Origin: Sinorhizobium chiapasense
Lineage (GTDB): Bacteria > Pseudomonadota > Alphaproteobacteria > Rhizobiales > Rhizobiaceae
Length of the DNA: 64,000 nucleotides
Assembly: GCF_036488675.1 (NCBI RefSeq)
Contig: NZ_CP133152.1
Span: 744,001-808,000 of the forward strand
Reading direction: 5' to 3'
This document shows positions 1,905 to 37,988 of the stretch, piece after piece (position 1 is the stretch's first letter; the number at the start of each line of letters is the position of its first letter). The translations under genes were made by a program, and so were the position numbers. The notes under the pieces were generated by a model, which did not search any database, was not told the DNA's origin, and worked only from the letters and a program-made list of their open reading frames with translations.

Positions 1905-1927
1905 AGCCCCCAGTGATGCTGGGGGCT
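1905..1927. terminator. Hairpin between convergent genes
   Basis: A perfect 9-bp stem AGCCCCCAG/CTGGGGGCT with a 5-nt loop lies between the hydrolase stop and the convergent nsrR-like stop. There is no clear T-run on either side, so intrinsic termination is plausible but unproven; it may serve both directions. Confidence 0.45.
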
Positions 1928-1938
1928 CCCAATACCCG

Positions 1939-2358: not shown

Positions 2359-2387
2359 GTCCTCACCTGCGTCAAAACGCCTGCCCG

Positions 2388-2416
2388 AAAAAGATGCATT
2401 TGAATAGCATCTTTTT
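2388..2416. promoter_or_regulatory. Candidate NsrR operator
   Basis: A perfect 10-bp inverted repeat AAAAAGATGC / GCATCTTTTT separated by 9 nt lies between the divergent nsrR-like and haemoglobin-fusion genes. The AAGATGCATTT half closely resembles the NsrR half-site known from enterobacteria. Position and sequence together suggest NO-responsive control of both directions. Confidence 0.75.
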
Positions 2417-2463
2417 GCGCTGCGCAATAGATGTATCCCAGAAGCATGTTATGGAGGCTTGCG

Positions 2464-3144: not shown

Positions 3145-3163
3145 GAGAAGGAAAGGACCTCTT

Positions 3164-14008: not shown

Positions 14009-14366
14009 TCCCTGTGAAATTAGGGACGTGGAATGGCGTGGCCGCATGACGGTCGCAACGACATCACCAACGGCTGGAGTCGACCCGTTGCGGTCATCCG
14101 GCTCCAAGTACCGAATGACAAAAAAGGCACGTCAAGGCGGACGTTGATTTCTGCCTTAAGTCGGCTTCAAGCAGTCGCTCAGAAATTCGATGAAGCGTTG
14201 CGTCGTTGCCAAAGCAGGCGCGTTTCGATGGCGGCGAAGACAGAGCGGCGGCGACGATTTCCTCCGCCAGAAGCGCGATGCCTAACGTCGGTGTTGAGCC
14301 GGCGTTCTCATCGCATCGGATGCAAGGAGACGCGAAGGGCGAGCAGGCGGTCACATTACTCAGGCG
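14009..14366. other. Transposon right flank, no gene recognised
   Basis: About 360 bases between tnpA and the Gfo/Idh/MocA stop. It should contain the right end of the Tn3 element and a boundary to older sequence. The heptamer TAGGGAC occurs here (14021-14027) and at the left flank (8957-8963), which may be chance. No coding sequence is supported. Confidence 0.4.
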
Positions 14367-15404: not shown

Positions 15405-15411
15405 GGTCACC

Positions 15412-15861
15412 TCAGCCCTTGCCCGCCGCCTTGATCATTGTCGCCGCGCGCCGAATGCCAAGCTGGTATCCTTCTGTTCCAAGGCCGCAAATCACGCCGT
15501 CCGCGCGGTGCGAAACGAACGAATGGTGTCGGAAGCTTTCGCGCTTGTGCACATTGGAGATGTGGATCTCGATCACAGGCCCTTCAAATGTGTTCAGAGC
15601 GTCAAGGATGGCGAGTGAGGTATGGGTGAAGGCCGCCGGATTGATGACGATGCCCGCACCGTCCTCGCGCGCCTCATGAATCCAATCGATGATCTCGTAT
15701 TCCCGGTTGCTCTGATGAAAGCGGATTTCATGGCCGAGTTCGGCTGCCAGTTTGCGGCAGTCCGCCTCTACGTCGGTGAGCGTTTCATGCCCGTAGATGT
15801 GCGGCTGGCGTTTGCCAAGCAGGTTGAGGTTTGGTCCATTGAGAACGTAGATCAGGCTCAT
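15412..15861 (-). CDS. aroQ: Type II 3-dehydroquinate dehydratase
   Basis: A 149-residue AroQ that dehydrates 3-dehydroquinate to 3-dehydroshikimate. The sequence has the family start [21 protein letters not shown], with catalytic Arg and Tyr, then [25 protein letters not shown] and [17 protein letters not shown], including catalytic His. Length is typical for the dodecameric enzyme. Its place in a catabolic operon with AroE, a TIM-barrel protein and an ABC importer suggests a degradative role in quinate/shikimate use rather than aromatic amino acid synthesis. Confidence 0.95.
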
Positions 15862-15894
15862 AGCATAGTGTCCTTCTTGAGCACGTCGTCCTGG

Positions 15895-16263
15895 TCAGAC
15901 GAACGCGATTGCTTGCACAGCAAAATCAGGGTCCGACTCGTAGAGATCTGCGCGCAAGCCGAGCCTTCCCGCTTTGAGAGCAGGCGCGGCGATCGCCCGC
16001 GCGGCGTCGAGAACGGCGGTGAGAAGCTTCTGCTTGGTCTCTGCAGTACGACCCGGTGCCATCCGCACGATGATTTGGATGAAATGATTATCGACATGCT
16101 CATCGCCCACGCAGGAGTATGTCGCCTCCCGCGCAAGCGTGCGCACGGCGGAAGGTTTCACAAGGCCGCCATCGCGAACGCAGCGATGCACGGTGAGCGT
16201 CAGCCGGTCCATGGCTACATGCTCGCCTGCGCCCCGGCTATAATCGATGATGATATGCGGCAT
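15895..16263 (-). CDS. 5-carboxymethyl-2-hydroxymuconate isomerase-like protein
   Basis: A 122-residue tautomerase-superfamily protein. It starts MPHIIIDYSRG with the N-terminal catalytic Pro2, continues AMDRLTLTVHRCVRDGGL, the ATYSCVGDEHVDNHFIQIIVRMAPGR segment and a C-terminal DLYESDPDFAVQAIAF, matching CHM isomerase of homoprotocatechuate degradation. The ATG at 16263 has GGAG upstream; the longer frame upstream is a shadow of aroE. It is tightly packed between aroE and aroQ. Its actual substrate may be another ring-fission tautomer, since no homoprotocatechuate extradiol dioxygenase is present here. Confidence 0.85.
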   Translation of the reverse strand: MPHIIIDYSRGAGEHVAMDRLTLTVHRCVRDGGLVKPSAVRTLAREATYSCVGDEHVDNHFIQIIVRMAPGRTAETKQKLLTAVLDAARAIAAPALKAGRLGLRADLYESDPDFAVQAIAFV

Positions 16264-21992: not shown

Positions 21993-22886
21993 ATGGTGAT
22001 CAAAACTGAAAGCGATCTGACGCCAGCCGTCCTCGCGGTGATGAATCGCACTGAAGACCCCCGCCTGCGAGAAATCCTCGTCGCGATGGTCAAGCATCTT
22101 CATGCCTTCGTGCGCGAGGTTCGACTGACGGAGGTCGAGTTTCGGGAGGCGACAGCCATGCTGAATGAAATCGGGAAGCTGCATACTGATCACCACAACG
22201 AGTTTGTGCTGATGGCCGGTTCTCTTGGCGTGTCTTCACTTGTCTGCCTGCTGAACAATGGCGACAGAGGACAGACTGAGACCTCCCAGTCGCTGTTGGG
22301 CCCATTCTGGCGCCTCAACTCTCCGCGAGTCGAAAATGGCGGGTCGATCATCCGATCCGAGACGCCGGGCACTCCCTTGTTCGTGCATGCCAAGGTCGTT
22401 GACCGCGACGGTAAGCCAATTGCCGGCGCCGAAGTGGATGTGTGGCATGCATCTCCCGTCGGTCTTTATGAAAACCAGGACCCGGACCAGGCCGAGATGA
22501 ACTTGCGCGGCAAATTCATGACCGACGAGCAAGGCCGGTTCTGGTTCAGGACCGTCAAGATGGTCGGGTATCCGATACCGGTCGATGGCGTTGTCGGACG
22601 CCTGCTCAAAGCTCAGGGACGCCATCCGTACCGACCAGCGCACCTGCACGCACTGATCTTCAAGCACGGATACAAGACGCTGATTTCCCAGGTCTTCGAC
22701 CCCAGCGACCCGAACATCGACTCCGATGTTCAGTTCGGTGTCACGGCAGCGCTGACCGGCGACTTCATTCGTCATGAGGAGCCCCATCCGACCGAAGCGG
22801 ATATTCCTGGTCCGTGGTTCTCGCTCGACTACACCTATGTCATGGAGCCCGGCGAAGCCGTTTTGCCGCGTCCCCCGATCAAATAA
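21993..22886 (+). CDS. Intradiol ring-cleavage dioxygenase, hydroxyquinol/catechol 1,2-dioxygenase type
   Basis: A 297-residue non-haem Fe(III) dioxygenase that ortho-cleaves catecholic rings. The N-terminal helical dioxygenase_N domain (about 1-105) is of the catechol/hydroxyquinol type, not the protocatechuate 3,4-dioxygenase type. Iron ligands fit Tyr159 (VGLYENQ), Tyr193 (VGYPIPVDG), His217 and His219 (RPAHLHAL), with the spacing of known enzymes. The segment AGAEVDVWHASP is conserved. First gene of a rightward operon with hydratase and aldolase, divergent from the GntR operon. Hydroxyquinol is a reasonable substrate guess; catechol is the alternative. Confidence 0.9.
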   Translation: MVIKTESDLTPAVLAVMNRTEDPRLREILVAMVKHLHAFVREVRLTEVEFREATAMLNEIGKLHTDHHNEFVLMAGSLGVSSLVCLLNNGDRGQTETSQSLLGPFWRLNSPRVENGGSIIRSETPGTPLFVHAKVVDRDGKPIAGAEVDVWHASPVGLYENQDPDQAEMNLRGKFMTDEQGRFWFRTVKMVGYPIPVDGVVGRLLKAQGRHPYRPAHLHALIFKHGYKTLISQVFDPSDPNIDSDVQFGVTAALTGDFIRHEEPHPTEADIPGPWFSLDYTYVMEPGEAVLPRPPIK

Positions 22887-22910
22887 ATCACGATCAGCAG
22901 AGCAAACGAT

Positions 22911-23693
22911 ATGATCACCGAAGAAGAACGTCGGGCCGCGGCAGACGCGCTGCTCAAAGCTGAAATCGAGCGGAAGCCGATCGTACAGCCTAGCGAGACC
23001 TACAAGAACCTCGAACTCGAGGACGCCTACCGGATTCAGGCTTTGTGGGCGGAGGCGAGGGTGGCCAAGGGCGCACGGATCGTCGGGCATAAGATTGGCC
23101 TGACGTCACGCGCAATGCAGATGGCTTCGAAGATGACGGAGCCAGACTACGGCTGCATTCTTGACGATGCGCTTTACAACGACGGAGCGCAGATCAGGGC
23201 TGACTTGTTTATCAAGCCGCGCCTCGAGGTCGAGCTGGCCTTTGTTATGGGTGAGGATCTCGTCGGGCCCGGCACCAGGATCTATGACGTCATGCGTGCG
23301 ACCGAGTTCGTTGTCCCGGCGCTCGAGATCATCGACTACCGGACCGAGGTCCCTCGAGCGATCACCGATACCATTGCGGACAACGCGGCTTTCGGCGCCC
23401 TCGTCGTTGGCGGCCGTATAATTCGCCCGATGGACATTGATATCCGTTGGGTCGGAGCGACTCTTTCCAAGAACGGCATCATCGAGGAGTCGGGCGTGTC
23501 GGCGGCGATCATGGGACATCCGGCAGCCGGCATCGCGTGGCTGGTCAACAAACTTCATGCTGTGGGCGGTGGCCTGAAGAAGGGACAAATAGTCCTGGCC
23601 GGCTCCTTCACGCGTCCTGTCGATATCGCGAAAGGTGATGTCATTCAGGCCGACTATGGCCCTGTTGGCTCCATCGGCGTGTCGTTCGTGTGA
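22911..23693 (+). CDS. hpaH: 2-oxo-hept-3-ene-1,7-dioate hydratase (HpaH-like)
   Basis: A 260-residue FAH-fold vinylpyruvate hydratase. Typical segments are [23 protein letters not shown], the metal-binding acid run [12 protein letters not shown] with [10 protein letters not shown], and the C-terminal [12 protein letters not shown]. In homoprotocatechuate degradation HpaH hydrates the 2-oxohept-3-enedioate before aldol cleavage. It starts 24 nt after the dioxygenase and ends 8 nt before the aldolase gene. The operon's ring-cleaving enzyme is intradiol, so the real substrate may differ from the textbook one. Confidence 0.88.
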
Positions 23694-23701
23694 GGTGCCA
23701 G

Positions 23702-24493
23702 ATGGAACATCCTGTCAATCGGTTCAAGCGGAAGCTCCTTGCTGGTCAAAGTCAGATCGGCCTGTGGTGTGGCCTGCCGGGAAACTACGCCGCGGAAATC
23801 GTCGCGCCTTCAGGTTTCGATTGGCTCCTGTTCGACACGGAACATTCTCCGGGTGACGTTCTGACCGTCCTGCCACAATTGCAAGCGGTCGCACCATACG
23901 ACGTTTCCCCAGTCGTCCGCCCGGCCATCAACGACCCCGTTCTCATCAAACGTTTCCTGGATATTGGCGTTCAGACACTGCTCATTCCCTACATTCAGAA
24001 CGCGGAAGAGGCGAAAGCCGCAGTCGCGGCGGTGCGATATCCTCCGGATGGAATTCGTGGTGTTTCTGCCCTGACGCGCGCCACTCGTTTCGGCCGAGTT
24101 GCGAACTATGCGCAAAATGCGGAACGGGAAATTTGCCTGTTGCTGCAAGTTGAGACGCGGGAAGCGCTTGGCAACCTCGAGTCGATTGCCTCGGTAGAGG
24201 GAGTGGATGGGGTATTCGTAGGACCGGCAGATCTAGCAGCGAGTTTCGGACACAGGGGCCAACCGAGCCACCCGGAAGTGGTCGATGCAATTGTCGACGC
24301 GATTGAACGCCTGAAAGCGTTGGGCAAACCTGCGGGCATTCTTACCCCGGATGAGAAGTTCGCGGCACGGTGCATCTCACTGGGAACACTATTTACTGCC
24401 GTTGGTGTCGATGTCGCTGTTCTGGCAAGGGGATCGGAAGCACTCGCGGCACGATTTGCATCGCAAGGAGCGTACCGCGATGCCGGAACGTGA
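23702..24493 (+). CDS. hpaI: HpcH/HpaI-type class II aldolase
   Basis: A 263-residue 4-hydroxy-2-oxo-heptane-1,7-dioate aldolase homologue releasing pyruvate. It has the catalytic-His segment FDTEHSPGD, the [10 protein letters not shown] strand, metal-ligand Glu in [10 protein letters not shown] and Asp in [15 protein letters not shown] 23702 is preceded by GAGGTG; an in-frame start at 23690 overlaps the hydratase stop. Acts after the HpaH-like hydratase in the cytoplasm. Confidence 0.9.
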
Positions 24494-25163
24494 TGAACTC
24501 CTCACTGAAATCGCACCGACGGGAGTCATCAGAGCGGCGGTCAACATGTCGAATGCCGCACTTGTCCAACTCGATCCAGTGACAGGCGTTCTAACAGGGC
24601 CGAGCGCGCAGATCGCGATCGCACTTGCGGCAGAACTCGACTGCAGTTTGTCGCTGGTCCGATACGGATCGGCCGCTGACATTCTCGCGGCTGCCGAAGG
24701 CAACGAGTGGGACGTTGCATTCATTGCTTCCGATCCGTCACGTGCCGACAGGTTCTCCTTCTCGCCCCCCTATACCACGGTGACCGCCAGCTTTCTGGTG
24801 TCAGACAGTAGCCCGCTGGGCAGCGTCGAGCATGTCGACGTCAAAGGGGTACGCATTGCCGCCGCCAGAACCGCTGCGTATACAAAGCAGCTTGAGCGAC
24901 AGATTAGAAATGCAATCCTCCTCCATACCGAAAATCCCGCCTCCGCCCTGGACATGCTTGTATCCTCCCAGTGCGATGCGGCAGCGGGCTTGACCGAGTC
25001 CCTGTCACGTTTCTGCGAAGAGAATCCAGGTTTCCGCCTTGTTGAGGGGACATTCTCGAAAGTGCCTCAGGCGATCGCTGTGCATCGGAGGTGCGTTCAC
25101 GCTTCAACCTTCCTGTCGGACTTCATCCAGCAGCATTGCAGTGCGGGTAAGCCGAGCAATTGA
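24480..25163 (+). CDS. Leaderless periplasmic-binding-fold (SBP_bac_3) protein
   Basis: A 227-residue protein with the fold of amino-acid ABC receptors ([70 protein letters not shown]), but no signal peptide: it starts [18 protein letters not shown] 24480 overlaps the aldolase end by 14 nt and has AAGGAG at good spacing inside it, so translation is coupled. The longer frame starting at 24351 lies within hpaI. Without a leader it should be cytoplasmic, perhaps sensing or buffering a pathway acid. A lost leader is an alternative, but the coupled start argues against it. Confidence 0.75.
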
Positions 25164-26427: not shown

Positions 26428-27393
26428 ATGCTCACCCGTAGAGGCCTCATCAAGAGCGCAGCGGCGCTCGTCGCGGCGGGAACCGTTTCGGGCGGGTTCA
26501 CCCCGGCCCTCGCGAAGGCGCCCTTTCAACCTTTCCAGGCTCCCGGCTTTTACAGAATGAAGCTTGGGAACTTCGAACTGACGGCGCTTTCGGACGGTAC
26601 TATTCCGTTGCCTCTTCCGGAGCTTTACACAAACACCGATGCCGAAGATGCGCGCAGAGCGCTGGCCGCGGCGTTCATGGGCACGCCCACAGATACGTCG
26701 GTCAACGCCTTCCTCGTCAACACGGGGGATAGGCTGGTGCTGATCGACGCCGGCACGGGCGCCTATCTCGATGGTGCGCTCGGCGAGCTCGTCGCCAATC
26801 TCGAGGCGGCCGGCTACAAAGCGGACCAGATTGACGATGTCATCCTGACGCATATCCATACCGACCATTCCGGCGGGCTGACGATCAAAGGCAAGCCGGT
26901 GTTCGCCAACGCGACCGTTCACGTCAACAAGCGTGAACATGATTTCTGGATGGAAACGCCTGTGGGGAGCCGACCGGCGAATGTGCCGCTGAGCTATTTC
27001 GTCGAGGCTCATGAGAGTCTAGGCCCCTATGCGGAAGCCGGCAGGGTTCGGACTTTCGCCGATAATGCCGGAATCTTGCCGGGCATCGGCTCGATCCTGC
27101 GGGCCGGGCACACGCCGGGGCACAGCTCGATCGTCGTGGAAAGCGCAGGCGCAAAGATCGTTTTCTGGGGCGACATTACCCATGGAAACGTGCTTCAGTT
27201 CGACGAGCCGGACGTGGCGATCCAGTTCGATACGGATCAGGCCGAGGCCATTCGTGCTAGGGAGGCGGCCTTCGCGCATGCGACCGACGGCAAATACCTG
27301 GTGGCCGGCGCTCACATTGCCTTTCCGGGCATCGGCCATGTTCGCCGCGATGCGACCAATTACGAATGGGTTCCCGTCAACTATGCCTCTTGA
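26428..27393 (+). CDS. Tat-exported metallo-beta-lactamase-fold hydrolase
   Basis: A 321-residue MBL-fold enzyme. The leader LTRRGLIKSAAALVAAGTVSGG (Arg4-Arg5, cleavage near ALA-KA, residue 29) is a twin-arginine signal. The zinc motif THIHTDHSGGL, the later GHTPGHSSIV, FWGDITH and the C-terminal GAHIAFPGIGH provide the two-metal site. Lactonase/quorum-quenching-like and sulfatase-like proteins share this architecture; the substrate is unknown. ATG 26428 has CGGAG upstream; the frame open from 26284 is upstream sequence. Converges with a LysR regulator. Confidence 0.88.
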   Translation: MLTRRGLIKSAAALVAAGTVSGGFTPALAKAPFQPFQAPGFYRMKLGNFELTALSDGTIPLPLPELYTNTDAEDARRALAAAFMGTPTDTSVNAFLVNTGDRLVLIDAGTGAYLDGALGELVANLEAAGYKADQIDDVILTHIHTDHSGGLTIKGKPVFANATVHVNKREHDFWMETPVGSRPANVPLSYFVEAHESLGPYAEAGRVRTFADNAGILPGIGSILRAGHTPGHSSIVVESAGAKIVFWGDITHGNVLQFDEPDVAIQFDTDQAEAIRAREAAFAHATDGKYLVAGAHIAFPGIGHVRRDATNYEWVPVNYAS

Positions 27394-29047: not shown

Positions 29048-31759
29048 TCAAACCACGAAGCCGCACGCTGACGCGGGCGTGCGGGTGTCCATGTTGCGCC
29101 CCCGGTTCAGGTGGTCGTCGATCTCGGCGGCGGCGCCGATCATCCGGCCGTAGAGAAAGACGGTGAAGGCCGCGGTCTCGAGGTCGCGCTCGCTGAGCCG
29201 CCCGGTTTGGTAGTCGGACCAGAGCAAGGCGAGAAGCAGCGCCGCGATCACCGCGTCGACGTTGACGCAGAAGACGTAAGGCGACGCCTCGTGCTCATAG
29301 AGCGCCTGCACCAGCTCGCGGTAAAAGGCGTGGAACACGTTGTAGCGTCCGTGCCGCGCCATGTACTCGGCGATGAAGCGCTCCCGCGGGTCGTAGTTGA
29401 TCGGCTTGCCCTTGAACACCGGGTGGTGCACGCCGGGCAGCGCGCGCAGCTCGGCGCCGAGCTCCTTGGCCGCCTTCTTCTCGTGCCGGTAGCGCTTCGC
29501 GAAGGCGGTCGCCATCGCCTTGAGGTCGAGGCCGTGGGCGGGATCGGCCGGGTCCGTGAGCCCCGTCTCCTTGAACTGCTCGAGCAGGAAGGCGATGCCT
29601 TCGTAGCCGTTGCCTCCGTGGCTGTAGCCGGTATGGGTCAGGAAGCCGACCATCGCCTTATTGATCTGCATGCGCGCGGGCGTCTGTGGCCCGTCCGCCG
29701 AGACCGCGCCCTTGGCACCCTGCGCCGAGATCGACCCAGGGCCGTTCGAAATCAGGAGCCCGACGAGCATCTGTAGCGGCAGCGCCTCCTCGGGCGTGGG
29801 CTTCTTTCCAGTCATGGCGAGGAAGCAGAGGTCGGCCATCGTCCATTGCCCAAAGCGCTCGTCGCGGGGGATGCCCCATAGCGAGCCCGGCCGGTGGTGC
29901 TCGCCGGGGATCGTCGCGCCGACCATGACGCCATAGAGCCGCAGGTACCAGGGCAGTGTCTCGGCGGTAAGGCGCGAGATGCGCTTGCGCATCAGCGGCC
30001 CCCAGGCGATCGTCGTGGCGATGGCCGCGAGAATTGCGTCCCGCGACAACCGGCCGCCGAGGCCCCCAAGGAACTTCAGGAACGCCGACCTGCCTCCGCG
30101 GGCCGCGATCGCCGCCAGCATGGCCTCTGGACGCGGGTCGGCTGCCTCGGCCTCGGTGGCCAGGAAAAGCGCCCGGGTGGCGTCGTCGCAGACAATCCCC
30201 GAGGCGTCGAATTCCTCGTCGCGCCCGTCCCTAAGGCCCGAATGGGCGAAGAGCCCGATCAGTGCCCGGGTACAGCCGAGCGCCCGCTCCACGCGCTTTG
30301 GCCCGACGATGGCGGCCGCGGTTGCCATCACCGCATTCGGAGCATTGCCGGCCTCCCGCGCTGCGTCGGCGGCGACAAGGATCGGGTCGCCGACTAGGTT
30401 GACCTCGGCTGCGACCGCGACGTCGAGTATCGCCCGGTCGTTCTCGGTGGCGATCTCGTGCACGAGCGGCAGGGCGAAGGTCGCCTCCAGCGGCTCAAGC
30501 GCGAGATCGAGCACTGAATGGCCGTGCACGCTCGTCACCTGGGTTTTCGGGTCCATGACCGACGCGCCGGACTTGTCCTTCATGTTCTGCCGCGCGACCA
30601 CCGCCCCGACCTGGGCGCCGAGCGCGGCGATCTGGCCGGCGTAGGGCTCGGGCGCGGTGACGGCCGGCATGGCGAGTTCGGGCGGCAGCCGCAGGCCCTG
30701 GTCGTTGGCGACCCAGGGCTTTAGCGCGAGGTCCCCACGCGGTGCGAAGTCGGGCGCGGCGCCGTTGAGCGCCATCACCGCGGTGAGGGCGGCGGGGATG
30801 TCGGCGATGTTGGTGACGACGGCGCCCTTCGCGGACACGACCGGGTTCTCGGGCGTGAAGAGGCCAGGCACGCCGAAGGCCTCCATGAACCAGCGCTCCT
30901 TGTCCTCGGCGCTGTCGCCCGTGCCGGCCATCGCGCCGGCATGCCCGACGGCACGGGTCAGCTTCGACTTCCAGCGGCCGACGACGCAGGCGACGACGGG
31001 CTTCGTCCAGTCGATGCCCTGCTCGTAGTAGCCGCCGGGTTCGGCATAGAGCACCGCCGCCTTGGAACGGTCGTCGTTGCCGAAGGCGTGGGCGAAGTCG
31101 GGCGCGGCGTAGTGGATGTAGACGTCTTTGCCGGAGGAGACGAGCGTCGTCGTGCCCCAGCCCGCAGTGCCGAGATACTGGGCGATCGTCGTGGTGAAGC
31201 CGCCGGAGTTCGAGAAGATCGCGACCGAGCCTTTGAGCAGCGACTCCTCTGGCTTGTCGCCGCCGAGCGCGCCGCCGATGCGCACGCGGTTCCACGAATC
31301 GGCGACGCCGAGGCAGTTGCCGCCGATGATGTCGATGCCGTTCGCCTGAGCCATCGCCCGAATCTCGCGGGCGTCGTGCACGGAGATCTTCTCGGTGATG
31401 ATGACGATCTTGCGCAAGCCCGGGTTCACCCGCACGAGCTCGGCCACGCCGTCGCGCACGCCCGACGGCGGCAGGTAGACGACGCCGGTGTCGAAGGCGT
31501 GGCCGGCGTCGAGCCCCTCGCGCACGTTGTTGAAGACCGGGATGTCGCCCACGGGCGTCTTCAGCACCTGCCCGCCGCGGCCGGGCGAGGTGCCGAAGAC
31601 CACGTTGCCGCCGGAGAAGGCGTGGCTCGTCGGCGTGACCTGACGCGACTCGCCGCCGAGGATGTTGAGTACGCAGACCCGGTCGTCGCGGGTCGCGATA
31701 TCGGCCAGTGACCGGAGGCCGAGGAAATAGGGAAAGCCTTCGATGCCTTTGTGATACAT
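29048..31759 (-). CDS. ATP-citrate lyase-like large subunit (SCS-alpha + citrate-synthase domains)
   Basis: A 903-residue fusion. Residues 1-330 resemble succinyl-CoA synthetase alpha (CoA-binding NNVREGLDAGHAFDTGVVYLPP region, GGNCLG, AIFSNSGGFTTT) with the phospho-His273 in VGHAGAMAGT. The C-terminal ~290 residues resemble citrate synthase: LLISNGPGSISAQG, catalytic-type His779 in PGVHHPVFKG and Asp835 in NVDAVIAALL. This is the domain order of AclA, which with AclB cleaves citrate with ATP and CoA to acetyl-CoA and oxaloacetate. Canonical AclA has ~610 residues; here about 270 extra residues (~330-600) lie in the middle and look like a second, degenerate citrate-synthase half. ATG 31759 has GAGGGG upstream; the frame continuing to 32410 is the shadow of the next gene. 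Longer 'type II' forms are known from a few bacteria. Confidence 0.8.
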   Translation of the reverse strand: MYHKGIEGFPYFLGLRSLADIATRDDRVCVLNILGGESRQVTPTSHAFSGGNVVFGTSPGRGGQVLKTPVGDIPVFNNVREGLDAGHAFDTGVVYLPPSGVRDGVAELVRVNPGLRKIVIITEKISVHDAREIRAMAQANGIDIIGGNCLGVADSWNRVRIGGALGGDKPEESLLKGSVAIFSNSGGFTTTIAQYLGTAGWGTTTLVSSGKDVYIHYAAPDFAHAFGNDDRSKAAVLYAEPGGYYEQGIDWTKPVVACVVGRWKSKLTRAVGHAGAMAGTGDSAEDKERWFMEAFGVPGLFTPENPVVSAKGAVVTNIADIPAALTAVMALNGAAPDFAPRGDLALKPWVANDQGLRLPPELAMPAVTAPEPYAGQIAALGAQVGAVVARQNMKDKSGASVMDPKTQVTSVHGHSVLDLALEPLEATFALPLVHEIATENDRAILDVAVAAEVNLVGDPILVAADAAREAGNAPNAVMATAAAIVGPKRVERALGCTRALIGLFAHSGLRDGRDEEFDASGIVCDDATRALFLATEAEAADPRPEAMLAAIAARGGRSAFLKFLGGLGGRLSRDAILAAIATTIAWGPLMRKRISRLTAETLPWYLRLYGVMVGATIPGEHHRPGSLWGIPRDERFGQWTMADLCFLAMTGKKPTPEEALPLQMLVGLLISNGPGSISAQGAKGAVSADGPQTPARMQINKAMVGFLTHTGYSHGGNGYEGIAFLLEQFKETGLTDPADPAHGLDLKAMATAFAKRYRHEKKAAKELGAELRALPGVHHPVFKGKPINYDPRERFIAEYMARHGRYNVFHAFYRELVQALYEHEASPYVFCVNVDAVIAALLLALLWSDYQTGRLSERDLETAAFTVFLYGRMIGAAAEIDDHLNRGRNMDTRTPASACGFVV

Positions 31760-31770
31760 GTCCGTCCCCC

Positions 31771-33054
31771 TCAGGCCGCCGCGGCCTTGAGCCCCAGCGT
31801 CGCGGCGATCTCGTCGCGGCCGCCAGCGCGCATCCACGTGTCGATGCGCTTGGCGTAGTTCACGACCTCGGAGATCGCGCTGTCGAAGCCGAAGAAGCGG
31901 TAGGGTAGGCCGAGGGACTCCAGCGTCTCGGCGAGGTTGCCCATACCGCGCACCAGGTTCGGACCGCCGCGTCCTACGACGACGTAGAGCGGCGTCGGCC
32001 CGTGCGCGGCGAAATATTCGCGCAGCGCGTCGCCCATGCCGCGGAAGGTCTCGAGGATGTCGGTGTTGTTCGACTTGCCGCCGATGATGAAGAGTACGTT
32101 GGCCTGGGCGAGGAAGTGCCGGTAGCAGATCGAGGCCACCGCCTTCATCTTCTCGTAGGGCGGGTTGCCGCCGAAGTCCGACGAGATGATCGCCGCCTCG
32201 CCCAGCACCTCGGTGACGAGGCTGTTGGCGCCGCCGCCGAAGGTCGGGGCAAGGATGGTGCCGCTCTCGTTGATCACGAAGACGTCCGACTGGCCCTGGT
32301 GGGTGCGGAGTTGGTTCACCTCCTGCTCGAAGGCAGAGATGTCTGCCGCGAAAAGCTGGTCCGGCAGCCCGAGCCGACCCACGCGCGGATCGTCGCGGTC
32401 GAAGCCGCACTTGAAGTCGCAGGCCACCGGCGTCAACCGCCCGTCGCGCCCGGGACGCATCCGGATCGGATTCAACTCCAGCGTCGTCATGCCGTAGTGG
32501 TGCATCAGCTCCCAGAGCTTCGGCAGGTGCTGCACCAGCGGCGAGATGATCTCCCGCGGCGCGCCAATGTCCGTCAGCGCGTTCGCCACCACAAAGGCCT
32601 TGAGCCCCGTGAGCGCCTCGAAGGGCACGGTGGCGATGTCGGACTTATCGAGATCCTCGATGTCCACGCCGCCGCGGTGGGTCAGCGTCATGGTCGGCGC
32701 GCGGAAATGCGTGTCGTCGGTGATGGCGAAATAGACCTCGTGCTCGGCGGGAATGCCGGCCTCGAAGGTCACGCCGTTCGCCTTGGCGAAGGCGTTGCCA
32801 TGGCGGTGCTTGGCGAAGTAAAGCCGCTCCTTTTCGGCGAGCGCGGTCTTGAGGTCCCGAGCCTTGCCGATTAGTCCCGCCTTGCCCTTCTTGCCGACAC
32901 CGCCGCGGAAGACCGGCTTGACGAAGATCAGGCCGTGGCGGGCGATCAGGTCCTGGATCGCGTCTTCGCCGGCGTCAGGCCCGAGCACCTCGGACACGGG
33001 GAAGTCGACGTGGCCGAGCAGCCTCGATCCGTAGAGCATTCCGTTGAGTTGCAT
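31771..33054 (-). CDS. ATP-citrate lyase-like small subunit (ATP-grasp, SCS-beta type)
   Basis: A 427-residue AclB-like protein. An ATP-grasp domain (about 1-240: GLIFVKPVFRGGVGKKGKAGLIG, then EVYFAITDDTHFRAPTMTLTHRGGVDIE and TTLELNPIRM) is followed by an SCS-beta-type CoA-ligase domain (VINESGTILAPTFGGGANSLVTEVLG, ISSDFGGNPPYEKM, FIIGGKSNNTDI). It would form the ATP-dependent phosphorylation half of citrate lyase and feed the large subunit encoded 11 nt downstream. ATG 33054 follows GGGGAG. Preceded by a 187-nt gap after the ABC permease, which may contain its own promoter. Malate- or succinate-CoA ligase is the alternative, but the partner's citrate-synthase domain favours citryl-CoA chemistry. 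Confidence 0.8.
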   Translation of the reverse strand: MQLNGMLYGSRLLGHVDFPVSEVLGPDAGEDAIQDLIARHGLIFVKPVFRGGVGKKGKAGLIGKARDLKTALAEKERLYFAKHRHGNAFAKANGVTFEAGIPAEHEVYFAITDDTHFRAPTMTLTHRGGVDIEDLDKSDIATVPFEALTGLKAFVVANALTDIGAPREIISPLVQHLPKLWELMHHYGMTTLELNPIRMRPGRDGRLTPVACDFKCGFDRDDPRVGRLGLPDQLFAADISAFEQEVNQLRTHQGQSDVFVINESGTILAPTFGGGANSLVTEVLGEAAIISSDFGGNPPYEKMKAVASICYRHFLAQANVLFIIGGKSNNTDILETFRGMGDALREYFAAHGPTPLYVVVGRGGPNLVRGMGNLAETLESLGLPYRFFGFDSAISEVVNYAKRIDTWMRAGGRDEIAATLGLKAAAA

Positions 33055-33241
33055 AGCCGTTCTCCCCAATGACCGAGGCGCGGTTCGGTCGTTTGACCTG
33101 TGGGCACTCAAGGTACGGCCGAGTCGATGGAAGGACAAGGTTAGGCTCAGACGCTCGCGGCAACAGCGTCCAGCTAGCCTCAGTTCCGTCGTCGCCTCGG
33201 TCGGCCGGCCGGCATCATTGCCGCCCGGCCGTCGGCGCCCG

Positions 33242-34018
33242 TCAGGTAGCCCGGCTCTCGGTCGAGTGCGGGCTCCACTTGATCAGCCGGGCCTCGGCGA
33301 TGTCGAGGATGCGGTCGATTATCAGTACGAATACAGCGAGGATGATGATGCCGGCGAAGACGCCGACCGCGTCGAAGTTGCCTTCCGCCTGAGCGATCAG
33401 ATAGCCAAGCCCGGCGGAGGAGCCGAGATACTCGCCGATAATCGCCCCGACGACGGCAAAGCCGACCGAAGTGCGCAAGGAAGACAGAATCCAGCTTGCC
33501 GCTGCGGGGAAGTAGACGTGGGTCAGCAGGCTCGAGCGCTTGGCCCCGAGAATTCGCGCGTTCGCCAGCACTACCGGGTTGACTTCCCGCACGCCCTGCA
33601 TGGCGTTGAAGAAGGTGATGAAGAACACCAGCGTCACCGATAGCGCCACCTTCGACCAGAGCCCGAGGCCGAGCCAGAGCACGAAGATCGGAGCGAGCAC
33701 CACGCGGGGGATGGCGTTCAGTGCCTTTATGAACGGGTCGAGGATGCGATAGGCGCCACGGCTAAGCCCTAGCCAGACGCCGGCCGCCACGCCGAGGGCG
33801 GTACCAATCACGTATCCGAGCACCGTCTCGGTGAGCGTGATCGACACGTGCCTGTAGAAGCCTGGGTCGATGATCCAGGCCACGATCTGCTTCATGATGC
33901 CGAAGGGGGCAGGGAAGAAGAAGACATCGATCACTCCGGCTTCCACGCCGAGCTGCCAGCCGCCGACAATGACGACCAGCAGTCCCAGCTGGATCATACG
34001 TTCAGTCATGGCGTTCAT
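33242..34018 (-). CDS. TauT/NitT-type ABC permease
   Basis: A 258-residue SsuC/TauC/NitT-family permease with about six hydrophobic helices (LGLLVVIVGGWQLG at the start) and the EAA-like loop (NARILGAKRSSLLTHVYFPAAASWILSSLR). ATG 34018 has GGAG 7 nt upstream and overlaps the ATPase end by 17 nt. Works with the ATPase and binding protein encoded upstream. Members move sulfonates, nitrate, aromatic acids and pyrimidine precursors; here the substrate is likely a di- or tricarboxylate. Confidence 0.9.
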   Translation of the reverse strand: MNAMTERMIQLGLLVVIVGGWQLGVEAGVIDVFFFPAPFGIMKQIVAWIIDPGFYRHVSITLTETVLGYVIGTALGVAAGVWLGLSRGAYRILDPFIKALNAIPRVVLAPIFVLWLGLGLWSKVALSVTLVFFITFFNAMQGVREVNPVVLANARILGAKRSSLLTHVYFPAAASWILSSLRTSVGFAVVGAIIGEYLGSSAGLGYLIAQAEGNFDAVGVFAGIIILAVFVLIIDRILDIAEARLIKWSPHSTESRAT

Positions 34019-34832
34019 AGCTTTTCTCCACTTCGCCGCGCAGCGATGACCAGATGTTGCGATAAAGATCCATGAAGCGTGGATCGAGCTTGATTTCAGC
34101 GACGTCGCGCGGGCGTTCAAGATCGACGGGGAAGCTGTCGATCACACGCGAGCGTGGTCCGGCGGCAAGCACCACGACTCGATCACCGAGAGCAATTGCC
34201 TCCTCGAGGTCGTGTGTGATCATCACCACGGCGCGCCGTTCCTCCTGCCAAAGCCGCAACAGCTCGTTCTGCATCAGGTGGCGGGTATGGATATCGAGCG
34301 CGGAGAAGGGCTCGTCCATCAGGATGACCTTGGGGCCGGTGATCAGCGCCTGGGCCATCTGGACGCGCTTGCGCTGACCGCCGGAAAGCTGATGGGGATA
34401 GCGATGTTCGAAGCCCTTGAGGCCGACTTTCGCCAGCCATCGCATCGACTGCCCGCGGCGTTCGGCAGCGCCGACACCCTTGAACATGGGACCGAGTTCC
34501 ACGTTTTCGATCGCGGTCTTCCACGGAAGCAATGCATCCTGCTGGAAGAGATAACCGATGTCGTTCTGGATCCCGCGCACCGGCTGCCCATCGATTGATA
34601 CAGTGCCACTCGCTGGTTTCAGCAGGCCGGCAATCGCATTGAGTATTGTGCTCTTGCCGCAGCCGGTGGGGCCAACGATGGCGAGGAACTCGCCATCGGC
34701 GACTTTCAGGTTCACATCCTGCACGGCCACGTAGGCGCCGAAGGCCATGGTGACCGAGTCGAGGGAAACCATCGACTTTGCTTGATGCGGACTGTCCGTC
34801 GGGGATGCGGTTTTCACTACGGCCAATGCCAT
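34002..34832 (-). CDS. TauT/NitT-type ABC ATPase
   Basis: A 276-residue SsuB/TauB-like ATPase. Walker A GPTGCGKST, Q-loop IGYLFQQDALLPWKT, signature LSGGQRKRVQMAQAL, Walker B VILMDEPFSALD and switch His in MITHDLEEAI are present. It begins 12 nt after the binding-protein stop and overlaps the permease gene. The first ~20 residues before SMVSLDSVTMAFG are a variable extension. Confidence 0.92.
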   Translation of the reverse strand: MALAVVKTASPTDSPHQAKSMVSLDSVTMAFGAYVAVQDVNLKVADGEFLAIVGPTGCGKSTILNAIAGLLKPASGTVSIDGQPVRGIQNDIGYLFQQDALLPWKTAIENVELGPMFKGVGAAERRGQSMRWLAKVGLKGFEHRYPHQLSGGQRKRVQMAQALITGPKVILMDEPFSALDIHTRHLMQNELLRLWQEERRAVVMITHDLEEAIALGDRVVVLAAGPRSRVIDSFPVDLERPRDVAEIKLDPRFMDLYRNIWSSLRGEVEKSYERHD

Positions 34833-34844
34833 GACCTCCTCCTG

Positions 34845-35846
34845 TCAGTTGGCGGCGACGTTCGGGACTTTGCCGACGAACTCGTTCGTGTAGGTTTTCG
34901 TAAGGTCGATTTCAGCCGCCGCGACTTTTTCGTTGAAGCTCTTCAGGACGGCGAGCGGAGTCTTGATATCTTCCTCGTTGATACGGCCGTCCTTCGAGAA
35001 GATCGCCTTCGCGTTCTCTACCGCCTTGACGTAGGTGTCACGATCGCCGGAGATAAACTCCTTCGGGAGCTTGTCGACGATCTCTTCAGCGGAGTGGCTA
35101 TTCATCCACTCGAGCGCTTTGACCGTCGCATTCGTGACCTTCTGGATGGTCTCCGGATTTTCCTCGATATAGCTCTGTGTGGCATAGAGGACGGAGGTTG
35201 GGTAAATCCCGCCATAGATCGCCTTGGCACCGTCGTCGCTGCGCCCGTCGATCAGGATCTTGCCGACGCCCTTGGCCTCGATGAAGGTCGCTGCCGGGTC
35301 GTAGTTGACGAGGAGGTCGACCTTGCCCTGTTCAAGGGCCGCGACGGCGGCAGACCCGGAGCCAACGCCGATTAGCGAGACGTCGTCCGCGGACAAGCCG
35401 TTGCGCTGCAGGTAATAGCGGACGAAAAAGTCGGAAGACGAACCCGGCGAAGTGATCCCGACTTTTGCACCTTTGATCGTTTCTGGTTTTGCCGGGTCGA
35501 ACGTGCTGTCCTTGCCGCCAGCCAGCACGAGCCCGGAATTGCGGGCGAGCTGCACGAAGGCCACGACAGACTTCTTCTGCGACTGCATCTGGATCGTATG
35601 GTCGTAAAAGCCAACGGCGATATCCGTCGAGCCGGCAACAAGCGCCTGCAGCGTCTTCGACCCGCCCGATGCGAAGTTTTCGACGGTCACCTCCAGGCCT
35701 TCCTTTTCATAAAGGCCGAGCCCTTGGGCGACCGGAAAGGGAAGATTGTTGAGGTTGTAAGAGCCGACGCTGATGCGGACCGGATCCGCGAACGCGGAAC
35801 CGGCAAACGCGACGGTTGCCGCGAGGGCGAGCATGAGCTTGCGCAT
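34845..35846 (-). CDS. TauT/NitT-type ABC substrate-binding protein
   Basis: A 333-residue periplasmic receptor. A Sec signal peptide (MRKLMLALAATVAFAGSAFA, cleavage after residue 20) precedes the SsuA/THI5-like core: NNLPFPVAQGLGLYEKEGLEV, SGGSKTLQALVAGSTDIAVGFYDHTI and GITSPGSSSDFFVRYYL. It follows the isomerase gene by 45 nt. Ligand unknown; sulfonate, aromatic acid or tricarboxylate. Confidence 0.9.
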   Translation of the reverse strand: MRKLMLALAATVAFAGSAFADPVRISVGSYNLNNLPFPVAQGLGLYEKEGLEVTVENFASGGSKTLQALVAGSTDIAVGFYDHTIQMQSQKKSVVAFVQLARNSGLVLAGGKDSTFDPAKPETIKGAKVGITSPGSSSDFFVRYYLQRNGLSADDVSLIGVGSGSAAVAALEQGKVDLLVNYDPAATFIEAKGVGKILIDGRSDDGAKAIYGGIYPTSVLYATQSYIEENPETIQKVTNATVKALEWMNSHSAEEIVDKLPKEFISGDRDTYVKAVENAKAIFSKDGRINEEDIKTPLAVLKSFNEKVAAAEIDLTKTYTNEFVGKVPNVAAN

Positions 35847-35891
35847 GATATTCTCCTCCTGTTGGTGGCGCCCTCCCGGCGGCCACGGTCA

Positions 35892-36974
35892 TTATGCCGC
35901 GCAACCCAGTTGCGTGACAGGTTTTGCGAATACATGTCCTTCGAACAGCCGGCGGGCGGTGCGAAGAATTCCAGCGACGACTTTGCCGTCCCTTTCATAC
36001 AGTTTGACGTCCAGGTGGCCGCTTGGGTGCTCTATGGAAAGCACGACTGGAGGGGCACGCACGCCGATCAGAAGCGAAGCGACTGTATCCCGGCTGATAC
36101 AGGCTGTGGCGATCCCTACGGCGCCCGTGGTTGCGAGCGACGGATGACATTGACGCGGCATGAAATACCGTACGCTGATGTCGCCTCCCGACCTTGGCCG
36201 GGAAATGAGCACCGGCTTCGGCGTTACCTGATTGCGGACGTCTCCAAGGCCCATCCGTTCGCCGGCAGCGATCCGCAGCTTTTCCAGCCGTCCTAGCAAT
36301 TCCTTATCAGCATTGAGTTCAGTCGCTGACTCGAAGCCGCTTGCGCCGATAGAGTCTGCCTCGATCAACATCATCGGCATTGCACAATCGATGCAGGTGA
36401 CAGCCACACCATCGATCAAGTCGACTGGCTTGCCAGTGGGAAAGAGCTGTCCGGTACGAGCCCCCGCTGCGTCCATGAAGGTCAGTGCGATCGGCGCTGC
36501 ACGGCCGGGCACGCCATCGATTGCAGCTTCCCCGAGATAGGAGACGCTGCCGTTTGGAGTGGGAACTTCGGCCTCGATCAGCTTGCTGGTGTTGACGTTA
36601 TGGATCCGGACGAGCGTCGTTTCTCCACGAACCGGGACAAGTCCAGCTTCGATGGCAAACGGGCCGACCGCAGCCAGCATGTTGCCGCAGTTCGGGGAGG
36701 TGTCGACAATCTGTTGGTCGACCCGCACCTGGGCAAAGAGATAATCCACGTCGGCGCCAGGAATGCTGGCAGGTCCGACGATGGCCACCTTGCTGGTGAC
36801 CGGGTTGCCGCCACCGATGCCGTCGATCTGCAACGGATGACCTGACCCCATGACGGACAGCAGGATCTTGTCACGCGGGTCAGCAGCCGCGGGAAGATCG
36901 CTTGCCAAGAAGAACGGACCCTTTGAGGTGCCGCCTCTCATCAGAACGCAAGGGATCGCCAACAGGTCATTCAT
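35892..36974 (-). CDS. PrpF/GalD-family cis-trans isomerase or tautomerase
   Basis: A 360-residue PrpF-superfamily protein (diaminopimelate-epimerase-like fold). The start MNDLLAIPCVLMRGGTSKG is the family hallmark, followed by GIGGGNPVTSKVAI and the catalytic Cys region TSPNCGNMLAAVG. Relatives isomerise 2-methylaconitate (PrpF) or tautomerise 4-oxalomesaconate (GalD); PrpF also acts on trans-aconitate. ATG 36974 is preferred over 36989 by comparison with the family N-terminus. First gene of the operon that continues into the importer and the citrate-lyase-like enzyme, and divergent from a LysR gene. That context favours an aconitate-type substrate over gallate, as no GalA/GalB/GalC is near. 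Confidence 0.82.
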   Translation of the reverse strand: MNDLLAIPCVLMRGGTSKGPFFLASDLPAAADPRDKILLSVMGSGHPLQIDGIGGGNPVTSKVAIVGPASIPGADVDYLFAQVRVDQQIVDTSPNCGNMLAAVGPFAIEAGLVPVRGETTLVRIHNVNTSKLIEAEVPTPNGSVSYLGEAAIDGVPGRAAPIALTFMDAAGARTGQLFPTGKPVDLIDGVAVTCIDCAMPMMLIEADSIGASGFESATELNADKELLGRLEKLRIAAGERMGLGDVRNQVTPKPVLISRPRSGGDISVRYFMPRQCHPSLATTGAVGIATACISRDTVASLLIGVRAPPVVLSIEHPSGHLDVKLYERDGKVVAGILRTARRLFEGHVFAKPVTQLGCAA

Positions 36975-37045
36975 CGCTTGTGCTTCCATCGCAATTATGT
37001 CATCGCCGTATCAATCAGCGCTCTTTGATCTAATTATCGGAAGAG

Positions 37046-37064
37046 GCATTTATTTGTGAAATGC
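37046..37064. promoter_or_regulatory. Candidate LysR-type operator
   Basis: The inverted repeat GCATTT-N7-AAATGC, containing the T-N11-A pattern, lies 24 nt before the LysR ATG and about 70 nt before the divergent isomerase gene. Its position suits autoregulation and activation of the isomerase operon. Confidence 0.5.
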
Positions 37065-37088
37065 TAAGAATCAGGGGATTGATGCAAA

Positions 37089-37988
37089 ATGAGCATTAAT
37101 TGCGAGATCCTTGACCTTCGAGCCTTCCTGAGCGTCGTAGAGTTGGAGAGCTTTCATCGCGCGGCCGATGCCCTGCATCTGTCACAGCCCGCGTTGAGCC
37201 GCCGCATTCAAAAACTGGAGCAGGTTATCGGAGCGCCCCTCTTGGAACGGACAACCAGGCATGTATCGGCGACGGCTCTCGGCACAGAGCTCGTGCCGCT
37301 CGTCCGACGGATGCTGGAGGAGTTCGATGGTTCGCTGTTCGCCGTCCGTGACGTTGGATCCAATCGAGGCGGATTGGTGACGATCGCGTGCCTCCCCACC
37401 GCCGCATTCTATTTTCTGCCGACCGTCATCCGCCAGTTCAATGAGGAGTATCCGAACATCCGCTTTCGTATCCTCGACTTGCCAGCGACCGACGGTCTTC
37501 AAGCAGTGGCACGCGGCGAGGTAGAGTTCGGCATAAATATCATGGGCACATCGGATCCGGACCTGACCTTCGAGCGGCTCGCGGAAGACCCCTTCGTGCT
37601 GGCAGCGCGCAGCGATCACCCCCTCGCCGCCAAGCCCGCGGTCGGCTGGGCAGAGCTTGAGCCCTACCATCTGATTACCGTTCATCGATCGAGCGGCAAC
37701 CGAACCTTGCTGGATGCGGCCCTGGCAAAATCGAATATCAAGCTTCGCTGGTTCTACGAGGTGACCCATCTGTCCACCTCCCTCGGTCTGGTGGAGGCCG
37801 GCCTCGGAATTTCGGTCCTGCCGCGCATGGCGACTCCGCAGGATGACCATCCGTTCTTGATCACACGCCCGATTGGCGATCCGGAGGTATCACGCACAAT
37901 CGGCGTGGTTCGCCGTCGCGGCGGCACCTTGTCGCCGGCGGCAGAGCGATTTCTCAAGATGCTGATGGGCGTATGGGGGAGTGATTGA
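37089..37988 (+). CDS. LysR-family regulator of the isomerase/importer/lyase operon
   Basis: A 299-residue LTTR. The HTH reads LRAFLSVVELESFHRAADALHLSQPALSRRIQKLE, then APLLERTTRHVSATALG. The effector domain begins GLVTIACLPTAAFYFLPTVIRQF. It is transcribed away from the PrpF/GalD-like gene with a 114-nt intergenic region, the classic LTTR arrangement, so it probably activates that operon in response to the imported acid or an intermediate. Confidence 0.92.
   Translation: MSINCEILDLRAFLSVVELESFHRAADALHLSQPALSRRIQKLEQVIGAPLLERTTRHVSATALGTELVPLVRRMLEEFDGSLFAVRDVGSNRGGLVTIACLPTAAFYFLPTVIRQFNEEYPNIRFRILDLPATDGLQAVARGEVEFGINIMGTSDPDLTFERLAEDPFVLAARSDHPLAAKPAVGWAELEPYHLITVHRSSGNRTLLDAALAKSNIKLRWFYEVTHLSTSLGLVEAGLGISVLPRMATPQDDHPFLITRPIGDPEVSRTIGVVRRRGGTLSPAAERFLKMLMGVWGSD

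Follow-up and report, generated by a model that had tools for sequence, protein, structure and literature searches.

A mobile gene set in Sinorhizobium chiapasense that probably imports and isomerizes a plant tricarboxylate and splits the resulting citrate

What does an operon do for a root-nodule-type bacterium when it joins a PrpF-superfamily isomerase and an ABC importer to an enzyme resembling ATP-citrate lyase? Such an operon lies in a 64,000-nucleotide stretch of Sinorhizobium chiapasense DNA (contig NZ_CP133152.1; hereafter the window), where it diverges from a LysR gene (Table 1). Our analysis suggests that this is a mobile gene set that probably imports and isomerizes a plant tricarboxylate and splits the resulting citrate, with trans-aconitate as the most likely imported acid. 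The pathway put forward in a first-pass annotation of the window thus stands as a well-supported hypothesis drawn from sequence. In this pathway, LysR would sense the substrate, the ABC importer would take up the plant tricarboxylate, and the PrpF-family enzyme would convert trans-aconitate to cis-aconitate. Hydration to citrate would fall to the unlinked housekeeping aconitase AcnA, which is present in the genome, as the first-pass annotation supposed, along with the citrate synthase GltA. The lyase, using ATP and CoA, would then cleave citrate to acetyl-CoA and oxaloacetate, and so yield a biosynthetic or storage precursor directly. Gene content and order, joint conservation, modular origin, unvarying catalytic residues and gene neighborhood are results of computation, from which the substrate, the direction, each reaction step and the regulation are inferred. 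We consider this complete route from trans-aconitate through cis-aconitate and citrate to be moderately probable as the function of the operon.

Table 1. Features of the operon and its divergent regulator, in window coordinates.
Feature	Position	Strand	Basis or remark
LysR-type regulator	37089-37988	+	Diverges from operon; HMM family match
Divergent intergenic region, 114 nt	36975..37088	.	One sigma-70-like site, - strand, 37060-37033, 10/12
PrpF-superfamily isomerase, proposed aconitate isomerase	35892-36974	-	HMM; nearest solved relative YbhH
Periplasmic receptor, NMT1/NitT-TauT type	34845-35846	-	HMM
ABC importer ATPase	34002-34832	-	HMM
ABC importer permease	33242-34018	-	HMM
Junction of import cassette and lyase pair, 187 nt	33055..33241	-	No sigma-70-like site found
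Small lyase subunit, ATP-grasp and citrate-binding domain, citryl-CoA-synthetase-like	31771-33054	-	HMM, motifs
Large lyase subunit, 903 aa	29048-31759	-	HMM, fold comparison, conserved residues

The six-gene content, the gene order, the divergence of LysR and the gaps of 45, 12, -17, 187 and 11 nt are all as first described, with the families confirmed by HMM. The same six operon genes occur in the same order in five further genomes (L039, L040, L042, L043 and L048), so the layout is not a product of chance. By blastn, a block at ~29.01-37.99 kb of the window matches L039, L040, L042, L043 and L131 at 87-94%, L131 probably being the same contig as L048; in L040 the match to the large-subunit gene is split in two pieces, and the gene may be interrupted. 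Counting the window, the full order of cassette and lyase is kept in six genomes of Sinorhizobium and Mesorhizobium, and one more record, S. fredii CCBAU 25509, agrees in how isomerase, receptor and large subunit are spaced, judged by hit positions only. The sigma-70-like site of the divergent intergenic region is weak evidence, since the region scanned holds 3 such sites against 1.1 expected.

This conserved unit is two joined modules: a cassette of LysR, isomerase and ABC importer, and a high-GC lyase pair joined downstream. GC3 is 0.91 in the lyase pair and 0.66-0.83 in the cassette, and homology with a lyase-less copy in S. fredii GR64 stops at 33109, inside the 187-nt junction. The difference in GC and GC3 would also be expected if the halves were independent, the lyase pair having been inserted behind the cassette to serve a general supply of acetyl-CoA or of storage material (PHB). 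Each half does occur without the other, and in two 19-kb loci of the same genus, L132 and L133, the lyase pair stands with no tricarboxylate genes, which also counts against the trans-aconitate pathway. However, the halves are co-conserved in the six genomes, with 180-197 nt separating the permease alignment from that of the small subunit, and a scan gave no sigma-70-like site for the 187-nt gap, where a promoter, according to the first-pass annotation, would have set the two halves apart. Other genera also hold an analogous order: in L041, L055, L101 and L108, LysR diverges from PrpF, importer, small subunit and large subunit, with a tripartite tricarboxylate transporter replacing the ABC system, and L058 has a similar order and transporter with LysR out of view. 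We therefore regard independent halves as unlikely.

The joint unit still leaves the cassette's substrate to be argued for, and the isomerase is the natural place to begin. Read at first as PrpF/GalD-like, this protein does not score as PrpF proper: it falls under the cut-off of the 2-methylaconitate isomerase model TIGR02334 (209.8 bits against 440.55), and a role in the methylcitrate cycle was dropped on that ground. It does pass the NCBIfam model for 4-oxalomesaconate tautomerase, NF033377 (507.2 bits, cut-off 440), a result that counts against the trans-aconitate pathway. That score would suit a cassette that handles 4-oxalomesaconate or another ring-cleavage product of the gallate or protocatechuate 4,5-route, the lyase being an unrelated passenger, and genes resembling a catechol dioxygenase and an FAA hydrolase lie at 21993-23693 of the window. 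Yet in a search of the host genome for the dioxygenase and aldolase steps, the single LigB-family match scores under the cut-off for gallate dioxygenase (76.2 of 412 bits) and under that for protocatechuate 4,5-dioxygenase, and the LigK/PcmE aldolase likewise stays under its cut-off (132 bits against 304.5); the gallate route was dropped for this reason. Nor is any ring-cleavage gene annotated within 7 kb of five annotated lyase-less copies of the cassette, while 13 of the 20 lyase loci with a linked PrpF carry Tct or Tcu genes. A ring-cleavage role is thus quite improbable.

The isomerase residues K62 and C96 are kept in all 20 lyase-linked homologues. Among solved proteins, the isomerase is closest to E. 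coli YbhH (6otv), a protein of unproven function whose YbhD-YbhH-YbhI system has been linked to L-malate use (PMC9068703). That system resembles the cassette in that a LysR gene diverges from genes for a putative tricarboxylate transporter and a protein resembling OMA tautomerase, and differs, as described there, in its transporter and in having no lyase (PMC9068703). A closer parallel is the trans-aconitate system TarR-TarA-TarB of Bacillus velezensis, reported in 2024, in which only isomerase and importer are needed (PMC11495376). There, a regulator discussed among the LysR type shares a promoter with an operon that encodes an importer and an aconitate isomerase of the PrpF superfamily (PMC11495376), and the cassette has this same layout of LysR-type regulator, PrpF-superfamily isomerase and importer. 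By this analogy, we propose that the cassette isomerase is an aconitate isomerase, although some TarA homologues are nearly inactive as such in the published survey (PMC11495376). TarB is a single 458-aa membrane protein, whereas the cassette has a three-gene NMT1-type ABC system, and TarRAB is reported without a lyase, the term ‘citrate lyase’ occurring 0 times in the main text (PMC11495376). The first-pass annotation knew of no description of such a module; its regulator, isomerase and importer are in print as TarRAB, while in the open-licence PMC literature we found no description of such a lyase next to genes for the import of aconitate or tricarboxylates.

Receptors of the NMT1/NitT-TauT family are known for sulfonates, nitrate and the like, so the family of the cassette's receptor counts against trans-aconitate. 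The protein itself falls below the cut-off of the aliphatic sulfonate model SsuA, TIGR01728 (92.4 bits against 163.5), and sulfonate uptake was dropped; the closest solved protein is a ‘putative exported protein’. We fetched seven copies without lyase from rhizobial plasmids, and in all five that are annotated the LysR gene stands at the same place and no further catabolic gene is common to them. Importer and isomerase therefore seem sufficient, and the product of the isomerase should already be a central metabolite. The co-conservation of isomerase, importer and lyase proposed at the outset holds in the six genomes, but the lyase is not essential for feeding the substrate in and is better seen as an add-on. 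Any benefit from the lyase is a guess, because a TCA cycle already allows a cell to use aconitate with no ATP-citrate lyase.

The lyase itself, first described as ATP-citrate-lyase-like, is closer to the type II enzyme than to the classical one. Both subunits have citryl-CoA synthetase as their best match among solved sequences (that of Hydrogenobacter, 6hxq). The genes are adjacent, as in type II, with a small subunit of ATP-grasp and citrate-binding domains (PF16114 at 52, cut-off 26.8; PF08442 at 47.1, cut-off 29.5; PF24948 at 29.8, below 83) and a large subunit in which a succinyl/citryl-CoA-synthetase alpha-like region (residues ~18-352) is followed by a citrate-synthase-like region (~395-903) with an internal repeat. 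At 903 aa, the large subunit is far from the classical size of 617 aa in 6hxj_B, whose sequence match covers just residues 70-304, and its C-terminal ~500 residues are modeled as a full-length citrate synthase, a further predicted difference from the classical enzyme (6hxj, 6hxh). Profile comparisons gave no clear match for this region: the best match among PDB sequences has an E of 0.13, hhalign against the host's own GltA is not significant (Prob 2.3), and against an unlinked citryl-CoA lyase homologue it is weak (E 0.0017, Prob 15). Only the fold comparison saw citrate synthase, and the assignment therefore rests on structure and motifs. Classical ATP-citrate lyase is absent from the 50 matches listed for the isolated region, which does not imply its exclusion, and superposition of the complete model on human ATP-citrate lyase spans 14-897 at an rmsd of 20.7, so the likeness holds domain by domain.

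The predicted enzyme pairs an ATP-grasp small subunit with a large subunit that has a phosphohistidine CoA-ligase half and a citrate-synthase-like half, and its putative catalytic residues are conserved across the family. The small-subunit motifs NNTD and RGGPN are present in 88/88 homologues, and large-subunit residues H273, H714, H779, R792 and D835 in 89/89, with R872 in 88/89 (two of 91 sequences were dropped); we take their roles to be those suggested by motif matches to GltA and by citrate synthase and ligase chemistry. The small subunit was found at 88 of 91 loci, and at the other three (L047, L079 and L099) the large gene lies at most 555 nt from the end of the stretch. Taken together, the sequence and predicted structure suggest a resemblance to the type II enzyme rather than to that of green sulfur bacteria.

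The company that the lyase keeps bears on the reaction it performs. Among 91 loci, sampled with a bias toward close relatives, 60 have one or more genes of the TctA, TctC-type, TcuA, TcuB, TcuC-like, 2HCT or PrpF kind in the stretch covered, so an association with tricarboxylate genes is frequent; the 31 loci with none count against the trans-aconitate pathway. PrpF is present at 20 of the 91 loci, compared with 37 copies above the cut-off across 190 genomes of Alphaproteobacteria. Since other lyase loci hold TcuA (7), TcuB (7), a TcuC-like MFS protein (8) or a member of the 2HCT citrate-carrier family (6), the lyase family, taken together, has no fixed link to trans-aconitate, and the unit could mainly serve another tricarboxylate, such as citrate, tricarballylate-derived aconitate, or an analogue bearing a hydroxyl or methyl group. 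But citrate would require no isomerase, tricarballylate would require TcuA and TcuB, neither of which turned up in the 22.7 kb surrounding the window lyase, and the lyase-less cassettes share no further catabolic gene, making another main substrate somewhat unlikely. At 11 of the 91 loci there is instead a ModA-like protein, never together with PrpF. Such a protein is reportedly an aconitate isomerase in Pseudomonas sp. WU-0701, from a 2015 paper. As a lead, the ModA-like neighbor at Burkholderiales loci is possibly a second, unrelated aconitate isomerase; the name ‘aconitate isomerase’ is absent among the best 120 of 7966 matches around this neighbor (SBP11). Two other neighbor families were sampled, one (family 17) being a porin in two members tested (L121) and the other (family 15) TctC-like in one (L057). 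Searches with the lyase family gave 2936 and 2981 scored matches, and the best 120 of each bear the names CoA-binding protein, succinyl-CoA synthetase alpha subunit, the same with ‘/citrate synthase’, or hypothetical.

The published role of type II ATP-citrate lyase, in tubeworm symbionts and Thioflavicoccus, is reverse-TCA autotrophy (PMC3522073, PMC6315080), and the lyase could accordingly belong to a reverse TCA cycle, complete or partial, with the cassette as a coincidental neighbor. The likeness extends to a two-gene enzyme and to clusters of the same kind (kor, acn, idh, tfr-like) around three relatives, and rests on cluster descriptions rather than on the sequences of the published proteins (PMC3522073, PMC6315080). 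Those relatives (L098, L113 and L117, 60-62% identity) have Kor, isocitrate dehydrogenase, aconitase and fumarate-reductase-like genes around them, and KorA is nearby at three of the 91 loci. However, in the tree the reverse-TCA loci group in a single supported clade apart from the window lyase, cassette and lyase stand together in six genomes, and the host's heterotroph-type genome (96.81% complete) has an aconitate-type import cassette and 0 matches to POR_N or a KorA-type gene. Reverse TCA in this host was therefore dropped, and a part in such a cycle has only a very slight chance of being the explanation.

With cleavage of imported tricarboxylate as the preferred reading, a wider one comes into view. 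Type II ATP-citrate lyase has so far been discussed mainly for carbon-fixing bacteria. We tentatively suggest, at somewhat less than even confidence, that it is a second, separately built ATP-citrate lyase, made from citryl-CoA synthetase and a full-length citrate synthase rather than a short citryl-CoA-lyase module, and that horizontal transfer spreads it through heterotrophs, in whose tricarboxylate-use operons it does the cleaving. Unrelated importers, and possibly two unrelated aconitate isomerases (PrpF-type and ModA-like), would plug into such operons, with autotrophic use as one branch. If this is true, a large lyase family gains a testable function, a type II lyase gene by itself is no marker of CO2 fixation, and its presence should not be taken as proof of autotrophy. 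The predicted full citrate-synthase fold would bear on the kinship of citrate-cleaving and citrate-making enzymes. An NMT1-type ABC importer found in 54 plasmid records at an identity of at least 60% would be assigned a tricarboxylate, and the pathway would help to explain aconitate use by plant-associated bacteria.

The block lies on contig C5 of the 6.87-Mb Sinorhizobium chiapasense genome (744001-808000 for the whole window), and its six genes, their order and the gaps of 45, 12, -17, 187 and 11 nt proved exactly as the first-pass annotation had given them. HMM families place a PrpF-superfamily protein, an NMT1-type receptor, an ABC ATPase and a permease in the cassette, and an ATP-grasp/citrate-binding subunit and a CoA-binding/ligase subunit in the lyase. 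The initial reading of the isomerase as PrpF/GalD-like holds at the level of the superfamily (HMM), and the protein passes the 4-oxalomesaconate tautomerase cut-off, but it falls far under that of PrpF proper (NCBIfam). A site scan found no sigma-70-like site in the 187-nt gap; the divergent region has one, a weak signal, with 3 sites in the scanned region against 1.1 expected. Other genes near the block, and isolated features elsewhere, are listed in the table.

Coordinates of the block and of features observed beside it or beside related genes
Sequence	Position	Feature	Observation
Window	21993-22886	Catechol-dioxygenase-like gene	21993-25163 overall resembles an aromatic-degradation set
Window	22911-23693	FAA-hydrolase-like gene	
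Window	24351-25163	SBP_bac_3-type protein	
Window	26428-27393	Metallo-beta-lactamase-fold protein	Best NCBIfam match AidB quorum-quenching lactonase, 177.6 bits, below the 360 cut-off
Window	29048-31759 (-)	Lyase large subunit	903 aa
Window	31771-33054 (-)	Lyase small subunit	
Window	33055-33241	187-nt gap	Permease/small subunit junction
Window	37089-37988 (+)	LysR gene	
L121 (Azoarcus MAG)	1634-4001	Two Porin_4 porins between PrpF and lyase pair	May let the same substrate through the outer membrane
L033 (Aminobacter sp. MSH1 pUSP3)	13465-16210	Lyase pair on plasmid typed conjugative	Followed by annotated CBASS phospholipase and nucleotidyltransferase genes
NZ_CP141053.1 (Paracoccus denitrificans)	1468162-1468644	Isolated 161-residue large-subunit piece, 73.9% identity	Perhaps remnant of a lost lyase gene
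G000 (host genome), C1 (L125)	2401742-2402437	Unlinked citryl-CoA lyase homologue	Adjoins PaaK-like CoA ligase; possibly a separate CoA-ester cleavage route

The cassette of LysR gene, isomerase and importer also occurs without the lyase. Of 72,556 plasmid records searched by tblastn at 60% identity or more, 54 hold the receptor and 59 the isomerase; rhizobial records give the best matches. Seven lyase-unlinked copies were examined, five annotated (Rhizobium lentis, Agrobacterium larrymoorei, R. ruizarguesonis, Phyllobacterium sp. 628 and Rhizobium sp. BT04) and two unannotated (the second copy of S. fredii GR64, and NGR234); by tblastn all seven hold the isomerase and three importer genes and none holds lyase genes. 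All five annotated copies have a LysR gene diverging from tautomerase, receptor, ATPase and permease, amid flanking genes that vary and are common to R. lentis and BT04 only. By blastn, the window matches the lyase-less copies in a single block that begins at 33.11-33.28 kb and ends at 37.97-37.99 kb (74-97%), and the lyase-bearing loci L039, L040, L042, L043 and L131 in a single block that has the same end range but begins at 29.01-29.04 kb (87-94%); homology to the GR64 copy enters the 187-nt gap by 133 nt and ends there. The lyase genes have a GC content of 0.67-0.69 and a GC3 of 0.91, whereas the cassette genes have 0.59-0.62 and 0.66-0.83. The lyase-less copies, the ends of homology and the compositional contrast together indicate that the import-isomerise cassette was probably joined to a lyase pair of different origin.

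Isomerase, importer and lyase are co-conserved: besides the window, S. shofinae and two strains each of S. fredii and Mesorhizobium carry the joined block as one unit; a seventh record, S. fredii CCBAU 25509, agrees by match positions only. In G315, a genome of the window's genus, the block sits on a 15,104-base contig, matching in length the S. shofinae contig of L048. Within that genus 4 of 33 genomes carry the lyase; in two of the four, L132 and L133 (19 kb each), neither the cassette nor any of the other tricarboxylate genes tested accompanies it. One copy of the joined block, that of L040 (S. fredii CCBAU 45436), has a large-subunit gene that is matched as two separate pieces and may be interrupted; other strains have intact copies.

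A scan of named genomes gave 359 lyase relatives. The best 80, ten plasmid loci and the window itself form a set of 91 loci that is biased to the window's close relatives, not mutually independent and in places cut by contig ends. Neighbours were counted by tblastn (E 1e-10, half coverage), each family being named from one tested representative: small subunit (88 of 91), 2CSK_N sensor kinase (32), TctA (31), PrpF (20), TctC (19; TctA or any TctC type, 38), SBP_bac_1 (19), SBP11 (11), DctA (9), TcuC-like MFS (8), TcuA (7), TcuB (7), 2HCT (6), malic enzyme (6), D-2-hydroxyacid dehydrogenase (6), monomeric IDH (4) and KorA (3). At least one of TctA, TctC-type, TcuA, TcuB, TcuC-like, 2HCT and PrpF occurs in 60 of the 91 loci, and in 40 of the 56 having more than 5 kb either side of the large subunit; tblastn of the stretches found none of the seven in the other 31. 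These genes thin out with distance, from 0.110 per kb at up to 3 kb to 0.055 per kb at 6-10 kb. As a base rate for PrpF alone, 190 alphaproteobacterial genomes hold 37 over-cut-off copies, against 20 in 91 lyase stretches of at most 27 kb. A LysR gene diverging from PrpF, transporter, small and large subunit recurs with an ABC importer (window, L039, L040, L042, L043, L048) and with a tripartite transporter (L041, L055, L101, L108); L058 has the latter order with no LysR in view. On a lyase tree made by a quick method with SH-aLRT support and drawn from its midpoint, the PrpF label changes four times, at least two changes being forced by well supported branches.

PrpF and SBP11 never co-occur among the 91 loci. 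The SBP_bac_11 protein, ModA-like and of about 260 aa, lies in the lyase stretch of L036, L037, L038, L060, L062, L068, L106, L110, L114, L116 and L120, and directly follows an MFS gene, not ABC genes, in L036, L037, L038, L106 and L116 (named TcuC-like by the test on L037); it may be an aconitate isomerase unrelated to the PrpF type. A 4HBT-type thioesterase, which has no evident place in simple citrate cleavage, occurs in 20 of the 91 stretches, including L032, L035, L041, L045, L056, L057, L101 and L108.

In L098, L113 and L117 the lyase stands beside Kor subunits and monomeric IDH, with aconitase and fumarate-reductase-like genes also found among them, though not all in each. These clusters match those described for tubeworm symbionts and Thioflavicoccus (PMC6315080, PMC3522073), and the three loci group in a single clade (support 100), separate from the window. 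Putative membership of type II, the published reverse-TCA type, rests on this synteny and on 60-62% identity to the three loci. Because the tree is drawn from its midpoint, it gives no order of reverse-TCA and tricarboxylate use, and the cut to the best 80 of the 359 relatives may leave reverse-TCA members under-represented.

The isomerase's nearest solved relative is E. coli YbhH (410.7 bits), followed by LigU (336.6) and next by methylitaconate and methylaconitate isomerases. Its K62 and C96, kept in all 20 lyase-linked homologues, we take to be catalytic, an assumption to which solved LigU entries with a different residue in place of the lysine lend support. Should an importer and a single isomerase suffice, their product would be expected to be a central metabolite, as cis-aconitate is, and the cassette by itself would thus argue for trans-aconitate as substrate; this is the published logic of TarR-TarA-TarB of Bacillus velezensis, whose TarA is a PrpF-superfamily aconitate isomerase (PMC11495376). 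Some TarA homologues are nearly inactive according to the same paper, so homology is no proof of isomerase activity. Beside YbhH lie a divergently oriented LysR gene and a putative transporter of tricarboxylates (PMC9068703).

The host genome encodes one PrpF, one AcnA plus LeuC, and GltA as well as an unlinked citryl-CoA lyase homologue. No POR_N was found in it, which argues against reverse TCA in the host, and no gallate or protocatechuate 4,5-dioxygenase or LigK scored over its cut-off, which argues against a gallate route. This content fits a heterotroph able to hydrate cis-aconitate to citrate.

The pathway first proposed, from trans-aconitate import through cis-aconitate and citrate to cleavage, stays the best hypothesis, but the lyase is now read as a type II-like addition to a cassette that also occurs without it. 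Among the papers listed in searches of an open-access library, we saw none describing a type II lyase within an operon of this kind. As to why a bacterium with a TCA cycle would spend ATP on cleaving citrate, our guess is that it gains acetyl-CoA directly for storage or biosynthesis; another guess is that the lyase would relieve a build-up of aconitate and citrate.
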